Origin: Saccharothrix obliqua
Lineage (GTDB): Bacteria; Actinomycetota; Actinomycetes; Mycobacteriales; Pseudonocardiaceae
Assembly: GCF_019375475.1 (NCBI RefSeq)
Contig: NZ_JAHXGQ010000013.1
Location: 124,001-188,000, forward strand
Length of the DNA stretch: 64,000 nucleotides
Direction: 5' to 3'
Positions 19,620 through 25,576 of the stretch are shown here, piece by piece. How positions within the stretch are numbered: the first letter of the stretch is position 1; each line of letters opens with the position of its first letter. The notes beneath the pieces are model-generated. The model was not told the DNA's origin. It searched no databases and saw only the letters and a list, made by a program, of their open reading frames with translations. Made by a program: the position numbers and the translations under genes.

Positions 19620-20006
19620 ATGCGGCGCAAGCGGCCGTACGCGTGCGGCGTCGACGTGGCGATCGACGTCATCGACGGCAAGTGGAAGGTCCTCATCCTG
19701 TGGGCGCTGACCACCGGCAGCAAGCGGTTCGGCGAGTTGAAGCGGTTGGTGCCCGGGGTGAGCGAGAAGGTGCTGACGCAGCAGTTGCGCGAGCTGGAGG
19801 CGGACGAACTGGTGTCCCGCCGGACGTTCGCCGAAGTCGTGCCGCGGGTGGAGTACACGCTGACCGCCCTGGGCGAGTCGCTGAACGAGGCGCTGGAGCC
19901 GCTGGGCGAGTGGGGTTCGCGCAACCAGGCGCGGATAGAGACGCTGCGGAGCCCGCTCTCCCCTGAACGTGTGAACGCGGTGGATTCCGGCACACCCGGG
20001 GCGTGA
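19620..20006 (+). CDS. HxlR-family transcriptional regulator
   Basis: A 128-residue winged-helix regulator with the HxlR core YACGVDVAIDVIDGKWKVLI, then RFGELKRLVPGVSEKVLTQQ and the wing RRTFAEVVPRVEYTLT. Cys9 sits at the position used for thiol sensing in HypR/QorR-type members, so a redox or electrophile signal is possible. The start is ATG 19620. Divergent gene: the imine-reductase-like enzyme 133 bp away, the probable target. Confidence 0.9.
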   Translation: MRRKRPYACGVDVAIDVIDGKWKVLILWALTTGSKRFGELKRLVPGVSEKVLTQQLRELEADELVSRRTFAEVVPRVEYTLTALGESLNEALEPLGEWGSRNQARIETLRSPLSPERVNAVDSGTPGA

Positions 20007-20027
20007 GGGTCGGCACGATGGGGCGCC

Positions 20028-20669
20028 ATGCCCGACCACGCTGCCGACCGGGGCCGGGCGGAGGTCCGCGCCGCCGGTCGCTCCGCGCCGTTCCGCCGCG
20101 GCGACCGGCTGATCACCGCCGGCACGCCCAGTGACGAGGTGCTCCTCGTCGAGTCCGGCCTGCTGAAGACGTTGCTGCCCGGTCACGGCGTCGAGCCGCT
20201 GGTCGGCCTGGCGGGGCGGGGCGACCTGACCGGCGAGCTGGGCGTCGTCCACGGCCGGCCGCGCAGCGCGCACGTCGTCGCGCTGTCCGCCGGGCGGGCC
20301 GTGCACCTCGCGGCGAGCGCGTTCCTGCGGTTGCGCGACCAGAACGAGGACGTCCGCGCGCTGGTCGACCACACCATCCTCAAGCGCCTGCACGACGCCG
20401 ACGAACGCCGCCTCACCCAAACCATGGAGGTCGGCTCGCGGGTGGCGGCGGTGCTGCTGAAGTGGGTCACCGAGCAGGGCAGGCGGACGGACCACGGTTT
20501 GCGCCTGGACGGCCTGAGCCAGCGCGACCTGGCCGACGCCGTCGCCGCGTCGGAGAAGAGCGTGGAGACGGCGCTCGGCGGTTTGCGCGCACGGGGCCTG
20601 CTGCGGACGTCGCGGCTGAGCTTCACCCTCACCGACCCACCGGCCTTGTCCCGACTGCTCAACCCTTAA
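20028..20669 (+). CDS. CRP/FNR-family transcriptional regulator
   Basis: A 213-residue regulator with an N-terminal cyclic-nucleotide-binding-like beta barrel (about residues 15-120, PFRRGDRLITAGTPSDEVLLV) and a C-terminal winged helix (LDGLSQRDLADAVAASEKSVETAL). The phosphate-binding cassette is only loosely conserved (RGDLTGELGVVHGRPRS, with GEL and an Arg), so cNMP binding is plausible. It starts 22 bp behind the HxlR gene on the same strand and lies upstream of a nucleotide-cyclase-homology gene. That adjacency suggests a signal-maker/signal-reader pair, an inference. Confidence 0.87.
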   Translation: MPDHAADRGRAEVRAAGRSAPFRRGDRLITAGTPSDEVLLVESGLLKTLLPGHGVEPLVGLAGRGDLTGELGVVHGRPRSAHVVALSAGRAVHLAASAFLRLRDQNEDVRALVDHTILKRLHDADERRLTQTMEVGSRVAAVLLKWVTEQGRRTDHGLRLDGLSQRDLADAVAASEKSVETALGGLRARGLLRTSRLSFTLTDPPALSRLLNP

Positions 20670-20696
20670 CCCGCCTCTTCGCCACGCCGTCCGCCC

Positions 20697-20818
20697 CCTA
20701 CCCCGCACCCCGCACCCCGCACCCCGTCCACACCTACCCCACGCCCCGCCACACCGTCCGCCGCCGCGCCCCACCACACCGTCCGCCCCCGACCCCCGCG
20801 CCCCACCACACCGTCCGC
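20697..20818. repeat. C-rich short direct repeats
   Basis: A purine-poor stretch on the + strand: CCGCACC-type 7-bp units repeated several times (about 20702-20727), then the unit GCGCCCCACCACACCGTCCGC twice-like copies (about 20765-20785 and 20798-20818). No coding potential. It separates the CRP gene from the cyclase-like gene. Confidence 0.75.
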
Positions 20819-20871
20819 AGCCCGGCCCGAACCGGCCGCCACCGTCCCGAACCACCCGGCGGCGATTCCGC

Positions 20872-20909
20872 ATTTTCCGGGAGAAGCCGAGCCCGTCCCG
20901 CCGGAAAAT
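20872..20909. promoter_or_regulatory. Inverted repeat before cyclase-like gene
   Basis: ATTTTCCGG (20872-20880) and CCGGAAAAT (20901-20909) form perfect 9-bp arms spaced by 20 bp and end eight bases before the ATG at 20917. The AT-rich arms stand out in C-rich surroundings. They are a candidate operator or promoter element, possibly for the adjacent CRP-like protein. Confidence 0.45.
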
Positions 20910-20916
20910 CACCACC

Positions 20917-21627
20917 ATGCGGGTTCCTGAGCAGCGGGCGCTGCTGGGCGTCGACGTGGTGGGCTCGGCGCGGAACGAGGGGTACCACCTCGACACCGTG
21001 CGGGTAGCGGTGGAGGAGATGGTTCGCGACGCGCTCGCCACGGCGGGCCTCGGCCGCGGTGACGTGCTGGAGTGGGAGTCGACCGGTGACGGCGCCCTGC
21101 TCACCCTGCCGAGCCGCCGGTTGGGCGCGGTGCTCGACGCCGTGCACCACCTGGAGGCGCTGGCGGAGGAGCACAACCGCAGGCGCAGGCCGGACATCCG
21201 GCTGCGGCTGGCGGTCGAGGTCGGCCCGGTGGGCCCGCACCCCGGCTACTACGCGCCGAAGATCTCCCTCAACCGGATGCTCAACGCCCCGGCGTTCAAG
21301 GACCTCGTCGCCCGGTGCTCCGGGATGAACACCGCGCTCATCGTGTCCGCCACCGCCTTGCGCGACGCGTTCGGCGGCGATTACACGACGCACGTCCGCC
21401 GAACCGATTTCAGCCCCCTGGAGGTGCGGGACAAGGAATTCGCGGAAACCACCTGGGTGCGCGTACCGGGTTTCGACACCCGCACCGCGACCGCCGTGGC
21501 CCCACCCGACGAGCCCGAACCGGAATATCAGGGGCGCGTGGTGAACGTGGTGAACGGCGCGTTCCACGGCGTGCAGGCGAACGTGGTCAACGGCGGCATC
21601 CACCTGGGAGCGCCGCCGCCCCGTTGA
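20917..21627 (+). CDS. Nucleotide cyclase-homology protein with amyloid-like C-terminal motif
   Basis: A 236-residue protein. Residues about 7-185 resemble a class III nucleotide cyclase domain: Asp13 in LLGVDVVGSAR and Asp58 in ESTGDGALLTL are at the two metal-binding positions, and SLNRMLNAPAF (Asn119, Arg120) fits the transition-state helix. Actinobacteria have many such stand-alone domains of unknown product. A proline/acid-rich linker (about 190-205) leads to two imperfect copies of a VVNG-x-x-HG repeat with a Gln between (NVVNGAFHGVQANVVNGG, residues 210-227), which resembles bacterial amyloid signalling sequences (BASS, RHIM-like). Such motifs usually recruit an effector with a matching motif. 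A CRP/FNR gene lies upstream and Pycsar-like/TIR genes 2.5 kb downstream. Enzymatic activity is not proven. Confidence 0.65.
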   Translation: MRVPEQRALLGVDVVGSARNEGYHLDTVRVAVEEMVRDALATAGLGRGDVLEWESTGDGALLTLPSRRLGAVLDAVHHLEALAEEHNRRRRPDIRLRLAVEVGPVGPHPGYYAPKISLNRMLNAPAFKDLVARCSGMNTALIVSATALRDAFGGDYTTHVRRTDFSPLEVRDKEFAETTWVRVPGFDTRTATAVAPPDEPEPEYQGRVVNVVNGAFHGVQANVVNGGIHLGAPPPR

Positions 21628-21782
21628 CCACCCCGCCCCGCGGCGCACCCGGAGCACCGCACCCGCGCTTCGCGATGCCGTAGGCCCCGCCGCGCACCCG
21701 CCTGCACCTGGGACGTTCGGCAGTCGCCGAACCGACCGATCAGCGGTGTCCCGGCGATCCGGGCCCGTGGTTCGGTGACGAC

Positions 21783-23759
21783 ATGCTGACTCTGGGGATC
21801 AGTGGGCACTTCGACCTGGTGCCGGACCTTTACCGCAGCTACATGCACGACGCGGCGGCGTGCCTGGTGCGTGACGGTGAATTGGTCGCGGCGGTGGAAG
21901 AAGAACGGTTCAACCGGATCAAGAAAACGAACCGCTTCCCGTCCGGCGCGATTCAGGCGTGCCTCGACCTGGCCGGCGCGCGGACGTCCGACGTCGACGC
22001 GATCGGTTACTACTTCAACCACCGGTTCACCGACCTGGGCCTGGCGAACTTCCACGCCGACGTCCCGGCGCAGCCGGTGCGCTTCGCGCGCGAAGTGCTG
22101 CACGGCCTGCTGAAGGACCGCTTCGACTGGGACCTGCCGGACGACCGCCTCCTGTTCACGCAGCACCACGTGGCGCACGCGTGGTCGTCCTACGCCCGTT
22201 CCGGCTTCTCCGACGCCCTCGTGGTGGTCTTGGACGGCCGCGGCGAGGTCGTGTCCGGCACGGTGTACCAGGGGCGTGACGCCGAGCTGCACGAGCTGCA
22301 CACGTACTCGGTCCCCCAGTCGCTGGGACTGCTGTACCAGAACGCGATCGGCCAGGTCGGCTACGGCTTCGGCGACGAGTACAAGGTGATGGGCCTTGCC
22401 CCGTACGGGAACCCGGAGACGTACCGCGAGCACTTCGCCCGCCTGTACGCGCTGCTCGACGACGGCGAGTACCGCCTGACCCCGTCGATCCCCGACTTCA
22501 ACCCGACGCTGTGGCCGTTCCAGGAGATCGGTTTCACGCCTCGCCGCGCGGGTGAGGAGCCGACGCAGCAGCACAAGGACTTCGCCGCCGCGCTCCAGGA
22601 GATGCTGGAGACGTTGGCGATGCACGTCTTCACGCACTGGGCGCACAAGACCGGCGCCCGCGCGTTGTGCTTCACCGGCGGCGTGGCGCACAACAGCAGC
22701 CTGAACGGCCTCATCCTGCGCTCCGGCCTGTTCGAGAAGGTGTTCGTGCACCCGTCGTCGCACGACGCGGGCGCGGCCGAGGGCGCGGCCATCCACGCCG
22801 CCCGCGTCCTGGGCGACCGCCGCACCCGGCACACCCGGCTGACGACCGCGTCCCTGGGACCGACCCCGGGCACGCCCGCCGAGGTCACGCGCGACCTGGC
22901 GGCGTGGTCGGGTCTGCTGGACGTCCACCGGCCGACCGACGTCGTCGCCGCCACCGCCGAGCTGCTGGCCGAGGGCAAGGTGGTCGGCTGGGCGCACGGG
23001 CGTGCCGAGTTCGGCCCGCGGGCGCTGGGCAACCGCAGCATCCTGGCCGACCCCAGGCCGGTGGAGAACCGCGACCGGATCAACGCGATGGTGAAGAAGC
23101 GCGAGGGTTTCCGCCCGTTCGCACCGGCGGTCGCGGCGGAGGCGGCGGACACCTACTTCGACCTCACCCCCACTGCCGCCGACCACGCGTTCATGGGTTT
23201 CGTGGTGCACGTCCGCGAAGCCCACCGCGCCACGCTCGGCGCGGTGACCCACGTCGACGGCACGGCGCGGGTGCAGGTGGTGTCGGCGGACGCGAACCCC
23301 CGGTTCCACGCGTTGATCAACCGGTTCGGCGAACTCACCGGCGTGCCGGTGCTGCTCAACACGTCGTTCAACAACAACGCCGAGCCCATCGTGCAGACCG
23401 TGCACGACGCCATCACCACGTTCCTGACGACGGAGATCGACGTGCTGGTCGTGGAGGACCACCTGATCACCCGCCGCGCGCCGACCACCGAGCTGCTGGA
23501 CGACCTGGTCCCGAAGCTGCGCCCGGACACCCGCCTGACCCAGCACTGGCAGGTCGGCGAGCCACCCGTGGGAGAGATCTCCCTGGCCCACTCGGCGGGA
23601 CCCCGGGCAACCCTCACCCCGGAGGTCTTCGACCTCCTGTCCAAAGCGGACGGCGAAACCCCGTTGTCCGCCCTGGGCCCCCTCACGCCACTGACCCGGT
23701 CCACCCTGTACACCCTCTGGCAGCAGCGCTTCTTCACCCTCTCCCCGAAGGGCGCCTGA
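21783..23759 (+). CDS. O-carbamoyltransferase (NodU/CmcH/TobZ family)
   Basis: A 658-residue carbamoyltransferase. The N-terminal Kae1-like domain begins LTLGISGHFDLVPDLYRSYM (a longer loop than the common GxxxxHDA) with MHDAAACLV and the metal His in FTQHHVAHAWSSY; nucleotide-binding motifs include VVVLDGRGE, FTGGVAHNSSLNG and HDAGAAEGAA. The C-terminal YrdC-like domain contains GRAEFGPRALGNRSILADPR and LNTSFNNNAEPIV. After about residue 575 an extra segment of about 80 residues (TLTPEVFDLLSKADGETPL) not typical of TobZ is present. Such enzymes carbamoylate hydroxyls of antibiotics or sugars. No other biosynthetic gene is adjacent, so the acceptor is unknown. Start ATG 21783 has no strong ribosome binding site. 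Confidence 0.88.
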   Translation: MLTLGISGHFDLVPDLYRSYMHDAAACLVRDGELVAAVEEERFNRIKKTNRFPSGAIQACLDLAGARTSDVDAIGYYFNHRFTDLGLANFHADVPAQPVRFAREVLHGLLKDRFDWDLPDDRLLFTQHHVAHAWSSYARSGFSDALVVVLDGRGEVVSGTVYQGRDAELHELHTYSVPQSLGLLYQNAIGQVGYGFGDEYKVMGLAPYGNPETYREHFARLYALLDDGEYRLTPSIPDFNPTLWPFQEIGFTPRRAGEEPTQQHKDFAAALQEMLETLAMHVFTHWAHKTGARALCFTGGVAHNSSLNGLILRSGLFEKVFVHPSSHDAGAAEGAAIHAARVLGDRRTRHTRLTTASLGPTPGTPAEVTRDLAAWSGLLDVHRPTDVVAATAELLAEGKVVGWAHGRAEFGPRALGNRSILADPRPVENRDRINAMVKKREGFRPFAPAVAAEAADTYFDLTPTAADHAFMGFVVHVREAHRATLGAVTHVDGTARVQVVSADANPRFHALINRFGELTGVPVLLNTSFNNNAEPIVQTVHDAITTFLTTEIDVLVVEDHLITRRAPTTELLDDLVPKLRPDTRLTQHWQVGEPPVGEISLAHSAGPRATLTPEVFDLLSKADGETPLSALGPLTPLTRSTLYTLWQQRFFTLSPKGA

Positions 23760-24083
23760 CCACAGGTCGGTCACCACGCCGCGGTCCGCGCGGGACGCCT
23801 CGTCCTGGCGGACCGCGGTGAACAGCCGGTCGACCTGTGGTGCGCCCCCGGCGACCTGCCGCTGTCCCGGTCCACGTCCCGCCAGCCGCCGTCCGCCCGC
23901 CGCGACGGTTCGTGAGCGGGCGGAGTGTGCGGCTGGTTCAGCGACGAGATCATCCGTCCCCGCCGCATCATCGGTTGCACTTGGACGCCGGTCGACTCCA
24001 GTACAAGCGCGACGTGCCTTGACCGCCCGACTCGACCGCCACAGGCACCTCCGCACGCCAGGCACCGCGGTGCCCCACCCGGG
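23760..24083. other. Gene-free stretch after carbamoyltransferase
   Basis: No intact gene. A 43-codon + frame directly after the carbamoyltransferase stop reads HHAAVRAGRLVLADRGEQPV and on to a stop near 23914 with normal codon bias but no start; a second frame further right ends near 24021. It may be the eroded remnant of a gene. GC content drops towards the right end. Confidence 0.35.
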
Positions 24084-24656
24084 TCAACGAGTGACGATCA
24101 CAAGCACCGCGGCTGCCACGAACGAAATCAACGCGAACCGGAACGTGTGGATGCCGTACCTCATGTGCTTGTGCCTGCGCTGGTGCTGCAAAATTGCCGT
24201 CCACAGTTCGGCCATCGCGCTCTTGTGGACATCGTCGATCGACTGGGCCGTGACGGTCGTCGCAAAGTTGCTATAACCGTCGACCGATGCCAGCGTGTCA
24301 CCCCAGTTGAACATGAACCTACTCGGGATCTCCTTCCTGTGCATTCGCCGAGTGGTACGCCAAGCAGCTACCGCGTTGGTACAGAATGTCAGTGAAACAA
24401 CAGTCAACACGATCGTCACAACAGACAGGGTGCGCATCAGAAGCACCACCCAGAAAGCGATCCCGGATGCTTGCAGAAACGCGTTGGCCTCCAGAATAGA
24501 GGCGGCCAGCAACGCCGCATCCGCGCTCAACAGGACAGCCGCACGGGACGACGTCGATGCCCGCATGCGATCATATCTGTCAATCTGCCACTGAATTAAT
24601 CGCAGCGTATCCCAGGAGTGGGTAGATAAACTGCAGTGCGCCGTCGTCTCAGCCAC
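24084..24656 (-). CDS. Membrane protein resembling Pycsar effector (PycTM)
   Basis: A 190-residue protein with an N-terminal helical segment (about 14-38, DTLRLIQWQIDRYDRMRAST), a hydrophobic hairpin (about 39-58 and 66-97), a cytoplasmic region of about 70 residues, and a last membrane helix (about 171-188, TFRFALISFVAAAVLVIV). The layout and the segment SSRAAVLLSADAALLAASIL resemble the PycTM/DUF5706 effectors of Pycsar anti-phage systems, which damage the membrane when cyclic nucleotide binds. Assignment is by eye. Codons are clearly lower in GC than the neighbours, a sign of transfer. The GTG start at 24656 has no strong ribosome binding site. It diverges from a TIR gene; no cyclase is directly adjacent, the nearest being 2.5 kb away. 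Confidence 0.55.
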   Translation of the reverse strand: MAETTAHCSLSTHSWDTLRLIQWQIDRYDRMRASTSSRAAVLLSADAALLAASILEANAFLQASGIAFWVVLLMRTLSVVTIVLTVVSLTFCTNAVAAWRTTRRMHRKEIPSRFMFNWGDTLASVDGYSNFATTVTAQSIDDVHKSAMAELWTAILQHQRRHKHMRYGIHTFRFALISFVAAAVLVIVTR

Positions 24657-24849
24657 TTGAGTCCATTCGATTATTGGGCTGCGGATATGTGACGCGTATC
24701 ACCACGACACCGGTCACGTGCCCACCGTAGCGCACGCGCACCAGCGTAGACTAGCCTCTCGGGCGCGTCGGGGACCCGAACGGATCACGCGCCGAACGTC
24801 TCCGCGTAGCAGCCGAAGCATATCGGTCCCCTCCAGACAGGATCGCCAC

Positions 24850-25350
24850 TTGACTTCGATATTCATCAACTACCGGAGACGAGATGACGCCTACGCCGCA
24901 GCCTTGTTGGACTACGGGTTATCCCAACAGTTCGGCCCGGAAAGCGTTTTCCGAGCAGGCCGATCGATTCTCGCCGGCGAGGATTACGAGGTCGGCCTGA
25001 GCACAGCGTTGGACTTGTGCTCAGCCATGGTCGTCATCATCGGTCCCGACTGGCAGGATTCTTTCGATGCCTCCGCGGACACGAGCGACTGGGTGGTGAT
25101 CGAGATATCACGAGCCTTGAGGAGGAACATACGGGTGATTCCCGTACTGCTGTCCGGGACGGAGCGCTTGCGCGCCGACGCGCTACCGCCGGAGCTGAAG
25201 ACCCTGGCAAGGCTGCAATACCTGAGATTCGACTACCGGAATATATCTCAGGACCTGGCGCACATCACCGCTGAAATCCGGCGAGCGGTGCCTGAACTCG
25301 CGACTGCGCAGCCTTCGGATCCTCGTGTCGCCCGGGAATCGTCACGGTAG
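24850..25350 (+). CDS. TIR-domain protein
   Basis: A 166-residue protein that is almost entirely a TIR domain. It opens with SIFINYRRRDDAYAAALLDY, has the second box region VFRAGRSILAGEDYEVGLSTAL, then VVIIGPDWQDSF. Glu85 in SDWVVIEISRALRRN is at the position of the catalytic Glu of NAD-cleaving TIRs. The TTG start at 24850 is chosen because AGGA lies seven bases upstream and the TIR fold begins at once; the frame is open to 24718 but reads as Arg/Ser-rich noise. It diverges from the Pycsar-effector-like membrane protein (193 bp between starts) and ends 63 bp from a tRNA gene. An abortive-infection NADase is the natural inference. Confidence 0.82.
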   Translation: MTSIFINYRRRDDAYAAALLDYGLSQQFGPESVFRAGRSILAGEDYEVGLSTALDLCSAMVVIIGPDWQDSFDASADTSDWVVIEISRALRRNIRVIPVLLSGTERLRADALPPELKTLARLQYLRFDYRNISQDLAHITAEIRRAVPELATAQPSDPRVARESSR

Positions 25351-25365
25351 GAGGTCACGCGGTCA

Positions 25366-25397
25366 CGGTGACGAGCACAGCTGTTACTTCGTCACCG
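25366..25397. terminator. Inverted repeat after TIR gene
   Basis: CGGTGACG (25366-25373) and CGTCACCG (25390-25397) can pair around a 16-base loop that itself contains CAGCTG. It is placed between the TIR stop and the oppositely oriented tRNA and may end both transcripts. No T-run. Confidence 0.4.
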
Positions 25398-25413
25398 CGA
25401 ACCCGGAACGACG

Positions 25414-25491
25414 TGGTGGGGCGGGTGGGGCTCGAACCCACGACCTGACGGATTATGAGTCCGCTGCTCTGACCAGCTGAGCTACCGCCCC
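25414..25491 (-). tRNA. tRNA-Met (anticodon CAT)
   Basis: A complete cloverleaf on the minus strand: acceptor GGGGCGG pairs with CCGCCCC, the anticodon arm reads GCGGACTCATAATCCGT, the T arm GTGGGTTCGAGCCCCAC, and the 3' CCA is encoded. The anticodon CAT means elongator Met or, after lysidine modification, Ile2; the sequence does not decide. It borders the lower-GC PycTM/TIR island, and tRNA 3' ends are common integration sites, but no integrase or repeated tRNA end was found. Confidence 0.93.
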
Positions 25492-25576
25492 CTGTTGCGC
25501 GGTTCAGGAGAGTACAGATCGGCGGTCGCCACGTCTCGACAACCCGTCAGCACGTGACCAACCCGTGTGCAAACGG

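Follow-up and report, generated by a model that had tools for sequence, protein, structure and literature searches.

Two small genes lie next to a tRNA-Met gene in Saccharothrix obliqua, one encoding a membrane protein and the other a TIR protein, and the question raised by this locus is whether they work together and, if so, at what. (The 64,000-nucleotide stretch of DNA that was analysed as a whole is referred to as the window.) The pair occupies ~1.3 kb. Its layout, from the minus-strand membrane gene to the tRNA, is as the original prediction had it, with coordinates collected in Table 1; the start codon of the TIR reading frame is preceded by AGGA, seven bases upstream. The gap between the genes had also been called a shared promoter region, but no sigma-70-type promoter consensus was found in it. 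The lower third-position GC of the pair is evident: GC3 is 0.723 for the membrane gene and 0.725 for the TIR gene, against a minimum of 0.900 and a median of 0.959 for the other genes of the window (n = 59 called genes of ≥100 aa; a home-made codon-usage caller was used, so that gene calls are approximate). Total GC is 0.57-0.62 in intervals covering positions 24000-25499, as compared with 0.68-0.76 in 20000-23749.

Table 1. Locations of the gene pair and of other features referred to in the text (window coordinates unless a locus is named)
Feature	Location	Strand	Basis or remark
PycTM-like 2TM/3TM membrane protein, 190 aa, GTG start	24084..24656	-	PADLOC, hhalign, AlphaFold2; predicted membrane-breaching effector
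Divergent intergenic region, 193 bp, presumed promoters	24657..24849	.	Computed gap
Stand-alone TIR protein, 166 aa, TTG start	24850..25350	+	PF13676, SARM1-like profile match, alignment of nine
tRNA-Met	25414..25491	-	ARAGORN
CRP-like regulator gene	20028-20669	+	cNMP_binding, HTH_Crp_2
Cyclase-like gene	20917-21627	+	
Sister module	L024, 4389-6612		Membrane gene divergent from TCAD9-like gene
Sister module	L021, 4166-6594		Membrane gene divergent from TCAD9-like gene
Sister module	L020, 2605-6555		Membrane gene divergent from TCAD9-like gene
Sister module	L009, 8180-10453		Membrane gene divergent from TCAD9-like gene
MTAVSMVLTLAVVVMWLG-type membrane protein	L016, 321-1184		Few kb from TIR pair
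206-aa protein of G058	L099, 2781-3401		No Pfam match
SLATT_3 + SLATT_1 protein of S. obliqua	L133, 1096-2573 (contig C3, ~48.1-49.6 kb)		Both domains in one chain

The two genes belong together, in the sense that a TIR clade and a PycTM-related clade are adjacent at nine distinct loci, making up what we regard as an actinobacterial conflict module of two genes. The search for homologues of the membrane protein covered 390 genomes of the family (five with a match, S. obliqua included), 397 of the order (three with a match, again including S. obliqua) and the genome_contigs collection (10 loci, of which one duplicates that of S. carnea, G059), and the three samples combined yield 16 distinct loci. 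At nine of these, distributed over three families, a TIR gene of the same clade adjoins the membrane gene: the window, S. carnea, G222, G184, Kitasatospora griseola, Streptomyces sp. MspMP-M5, S. inusitatus, Streptacidiphilus sp. 4-A2 and Actinomadura sp. OS1-43. The defence reading was to be given up if homologues of the membrane protein were never found with TIR genes, and it survives this comparison. The divergent layout, originally singled out as an oddity, is in fact the usual arrangement here: seven of the nine pairs are divergent, with gaps of 57-193 bp, and two are co-directional with the membrane gene first (45 and 47 bp; all of these gaps rest on hand-chosen starts).

The nine TIR-paired membrane proteins fall on one side of a branch with support of 100/100 (the tree is unrooted and has two long rows). 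When the 390 family genomes are searched with a profile of the paired TIRs, four proteins score 268-286 bits and the next 158; the membrane gene adjoins all four of the former and is present at none of 26 other TIR loci in the family genomes, within flanks of ~1.5 kb. Identities of the TIR proteins correlate with those of the membrane proteins (r 0.77 over 36 locus pairs, a value reached in 1 of 5000 permutations), a correlated divergence that may be due, in part, to host phylogeny. The flanks of the nine loci are unrelated, except for five genes common to L007 and L008, and the pair is the only conserved unit among them.

Identification of the TIR protein is straightforward: PF13676 (TIR_2), the model proposed for checking it, matches at 40.2 bits (cut-off 28; E 5.7e-10), and no second domain is found by Pfam. 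A profile of the nine paired TIRs searched against the PDB places SARM1 TIRs at the top (E 1.3e-12) and aligns the DWVxxEI of the paired proteins with DWVHKEI of SARM1. Residue 85 of the window TIR, picked out beforehand as a glutamate of catalytic type, is Glu and does not vary among the nine paired TIRs; the SARM1 residue with which it aligns is, we take it, the catalytic Glu642. By alignment the protein has an NADase-type glutamate, and cleavage of NAD+ is predicted. Because the nearest solved TIRs are those of NAD-depleting SARM1, the TIR may itself be the killer. Likeness to the TIR proteins of Thoeris systems is slight: the ThsB model PDLC00434 matches five of the nine weakly (best E 4.5e-5), and the NCBIfam model for ThcB4 of Thoeris type III matches all nine, with the window TIR at 23.4 bits against a cut-off of 220.

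The membrane protein is harder to place. Pfam offers nothing credible for it (best E 0.14). It had been described as PycTM/DUF5706-like, with PF18967 as the suggested check, and that search is empty, both for the window protein and for 16 aligned homologues at E ≤ 1; the kinship itself is nevertheless backed by other comparisons. Two PADLOC models match over nearly the full length, the 2TM effector model PDLC00700 at E 1e-8 and PycTM PDLC02364 at E 2.3e-8; at E ≤ 0.01 they match 16 and 13, respectively, of the 16 aligned homologues. (The 'Effector 2TM' models of PADLOC presumably derive from Pycsar work.) Alignment by hhalign of the 16 homologues with 16 actinobacterial PF18967 proteins (taken from 16 of 20 loci, L087, L088, L090 and L091 being omitted) gives 91-92%, with E-values of 1.1e-6 and 5.3e-7 over 141-149 columns, as compared with ≤0.2% for one reversed and 20 column-shuffled controls. 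Taken separately, the nine TIR-paired proteins give 77.6 and the other six used 61.7, and the profile of the PF18967 set directly retrieves one of the four pair loci of the family (E 4e-5). On these profile comparisons, the membrane protein is a divergent relative of PycTM, by remote homology that extends over its full length.

The AlphaFold2 model (pLDDT 83.2, pTM 0.70) has helices at residues 10-61, 68-96 and 140-189. Three hydrophobic segments had been anticipated, and they are found at 37-61, within 59-100 and at 167-190. The coincidence of modelled helices with hydrophobic stretches points to a protein that crosses the membrane three times and has a cytoplasmic stalk at about residues 97-165. 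No ligand-binding domain was recognised in it, and neither it nor the 16 aligned homologues contain SIR2-SLOG, TM-macro or caspase-like Pfam domains.

SLATT membership was considered and rejected: hhalign gives 0.6% for SLATT_1 and 0.2% for SLATT_3, and no Pfam SLATT model matches at E ≤ 1 (SLATT families beyond these two were compared by Pfam only). Elsewhere in the S. obliqua genome, a single chain with SLATT_3 and SLATT_1 domains adjoins a 196-aa protein that is SLOG/LOG-like by eye, and these two genes are probably a SLOG-SLATT conflict pair. A separate observation concerns the PF18967 genes of three genomes (L087, L088, L090), which are followed by one and the same kind of membrane protein (MTAVSMVLTLAVVVMWLG...). 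Proteins of this type, one of which is also found near the TIR pair of L016, recall what we take to be genes of actinomycete integrative elements.

What might the two proteins do together? Judged by sequence, the pair is probably a small, self-contained immune system of the suicide type. The best explanation, to which we would give a little less than an even chance, is that the TIR protein senses infection and makes a NAD-derived signal, and that the PycTM-like protein breaches the membrane. On recognising infection, the TIR would cleave NAD+ by way of its conserved glutamate, generating an ADP-ribose-type signal and perhaps also depleting NAD+. The PycTM-like protein would be an inner-membrane protein whose long helices form the cytoplasmic stalk, and it would oligomerise either on receipt of the signal or on meeting the TIR in its activated state; the oligomer would then permeabilise the membrane and the infected cell would die. 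There are precedents in excerpts from the literature: PycTM is said to form pores and so to disrupt the membrane (PMC11224242), the TIR products of Thoeris type II activate a TM-macro effector (PMC12847820, PMC11204291), and genes for TIR proteins are paired with those for SLATT 2TM proteins (PMC9503650, PMC7159879).

The membrane protein is also found with other partners. Seven of the 16 homologues are without a TIR, and four of the seven (L009, L020, L021, L024) have a divergent, kinase-like TCAD9-like neighbour with HGDLHxxN and LIDxG-type motifs. TCAD9 scores of these neighbours lie on both sides of the Pfam cut-off of 40 (41.3 and 42.0 bits above it, 25.4 and 23.8 below). Two of them carry the Death-like domain bDLD3 and one carries SIR2_2; no such partner was recognised in L022, L023 and L025. 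(In L024, a second bDLD3 protein is encoded downstream of the membrane gene.) Since nine loci have a TIR and four a TCAD9-like protein, it seems that the membrane protein stays constant and that its partner is exchanged, the TCAD9-like loci forming another module of two genes around the same family of membrane proteins.

This same constancy is open to a different construction, in which the roles are reversed: the membrane protein would sense membrane damage or restrain the TIR, which would itself be the effector, depleting NAD+ after the membrane protein had released it or brought about its assembly. A fixed membrane protein with an exchanged partner, either TIR or TCAD9-like and in one case with SIR2_2, is consistent with such an arrangement, as are the SARM1 NADases that head the PDB matches of the TIR profile. 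On the other hand, the proteins to which the membrane protein is related in PADLOC and PF18967 are classed as effectors, and no NADase domain is recognised in the other three TCAD9 partners. Although we consider reversal of roles unlikely, it is a rival to be taken seriously, given that the closest TIRs of solved structure are NADases and that SIR2 occurs in one of the sister partners.

Kinship with PycTM also suggests that the membrane protein, and perhaps the TIR, might respond to a cyclic nucleotide produced by a cyclase whose gene lies elsewhere. The original prediction found no cyclase directly adjacent. This is correct as regards recognised class III cyclases: PF00211 has no match in four of the pair-bearing genomes (G000, G059, G222, G184), and its ten matches in the other five would all lie more than 30 kb from the pair even if they shared its contig (the nearest, in G709, would then be 32 kb away, at 206 kb versus 173 kb). 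However, divergent class III cyclase-like genes that PF00211 misses exist in the genome of S. obliqua, and one of them lies 2.5 kb from the pair. It has no Pfam match and a single match in the PDB, to a cyclase (E 0.61); its VDVVGSA and TGDG motifs are both conserved, up to similar residues, in 14 aligned relatives. This gene and the PycTM kinship speak for a Pycsar-derived pair. Nevertheless, the cyclase-like family occurs in 36 of 100 sampled family genomes, most of them without the membrane protein; in G184 it is 2 Mb from the pair, and in relatives it is not linked to it. Moreover, the TIR lacks the cNMP-binding domain ascribed to PycTIR in excerpts from PMC11224242. Taken together, a pair gated by a distant cyclase is improbable. 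The claim of two effectors that respond to a signal from elsewhere is not supported, in that nothing beyond the pair is conserved as a unit and the neighbourhood lacks a recognised class III cyclase, although divergent cyclases do exist in the genome. For these same two reasons, the TIR as sensor and signal maker with the membrane protein as effector is the simpler reading.

Two further features of the cyclase-like gene can be recorded here. It is preceded by the CRP-like regulator gene of Table 1, and its relatives share, in addition to VDxxxS and GDG motifs, a C-terminal repeat of the type VNxVNGxxHGVQAxTVxGGIxFG, which we take to resemble a bacterial amyloid signalling motif.

The genomic site bears on whether the pair is concerned with immunity at all. 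The tRNA-Met and a neighbouring MPAB-like gene are present in 25 of 25 genomes of the genus. The far side of the tRNA is variable: integrase-family (PF00589) genes are located there in at least 8 of 24 other genus genomes (L097-L120; ten called flank genes were scanned and PF00589 was confirmed in 8 of 8 candidates scanned, that of S. carnea being a 62-aa call), and one genus genome has a serine recombinase beside the tRNA. In the window itself, no integrase was found among four flanking proteins scanned, and direct repeats were sought and not found. The pair of S. carnea is ~460 kb from this tRNA-Met, so that its location differs between two species of the genus. The description of a foreign-looking, low-GC3 island at a tRNA is upheld, the tRNA serving as an integration site in relatives, and the view that we favour is of the pair as cargo carried at a hotspot of integration. 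In another genome of the genus (G058), a 206-aa protein fills the slot between a carbamoyltransferase gene and the tRNA-Met; this is the slot that the TIR pair takes up in the window, the two carbamoyltransferases being 69% identical over 140 aa.

It could be argued that the pair is an ordinary membrane and NAD-linked regulatory pair with no part in immunity. No homologue was found in the phage, plasmid and viral-contig collections searched; the synteny between L007 and L008, which represent two genera, is resident-like; and six window proteins scanned near the pair include no defence gene above doubt. Against this stand the patchy distribution of the pair (4 of 390 family genomes), its low GC3, its different places in two species, the integration-prone tRNA site and the presence of relatives of both proteins in defence families. 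We regard a purely regulatory function as decidedly unlikely, and return to the suicide-type immune system as the frame for comparison.

No description of a TIR + PycTM pair was found in the literature searched, which excluded subscription papers, the original Pycsar paper among them. The pair might represent a distinct TIR immune type, with a PycTM-family effector freed from its pyrimidine cyclase and gated either by a product that the TIR derives from NAD or directly by the TIR; this is a tentative proposal, with the balance leaning somewhat against it. If true, it would link Pycsar and Thoeris through an effector fold that has switched its activator, and sister effectors would have made a further switch, to TCAD9 proteins that are kinase-like and carry Death-like or SIR2 domains. 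PycTM-type membrane effectors could then be thought of as modular outputs for different triggers (cyclase, TIR, kinase-like TCAD9), and TIR signals would control one more class of effector. Because the pair is ~1.3 kb long and looks self-contained, what opens a PycTM-type protein could be tested in a two-gene construct.

Among known systems, Thoeris type II likewise has a TIR enzyme gene beside a membrane effector gene, and its two-helix TM effector is thought to perturb the membrane (PMC11204291 and PMC12847820, in excerpt). The arrangement that characterises Thoeris, a TIR gene next to an effector-candidate gene, is found at 9 of 9 loci of the clade. In contrast with Thoeris, the pair's membrane protein has no macro, SIR2-SLOG or caspase-like domain, and ThsB matches are weak. 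By analogy, the pair would be Thoeris-like in logic, with predicted ADPR-derived signalling, but not in effector. With Pycsar it shares a membrane protein distantly related to PycTM; it differs in having no PF00211 cyclase within 30 kb, no match to PF18967 and a TIR without the cNMP-binding domain of PycTIR. The predicted TIR + SLATT 2TM neighbourhoods of firmicute phages and GAP1-N1 systems also place a TIR gene beside a small 2TM gene, whose product is predicted to be a pore gated by a nucleotide signal (PMC9503650, PMC7159879, in excerpt); the present membrane protein is not SLATT_1 or SLATT_3, and the pair resides on actinobacterial chromosomes rather than in phages. Panoptes (OptS mCpol and OptE S-2TM-beta) is another combination of two genes for an enzyme and a 2TM effector (PMC12657218, in excerpt), whereas the enzyme here is a TIR instead of mCpol, and the model of the membrane protein is all helical, with no beta-barrel nucleotide-binding domain. 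The pair fits the full definition of none of these systems; it is closest to Thoeris type II in logic, to Pycsar in effector and to TIR-SLATT in pairing.
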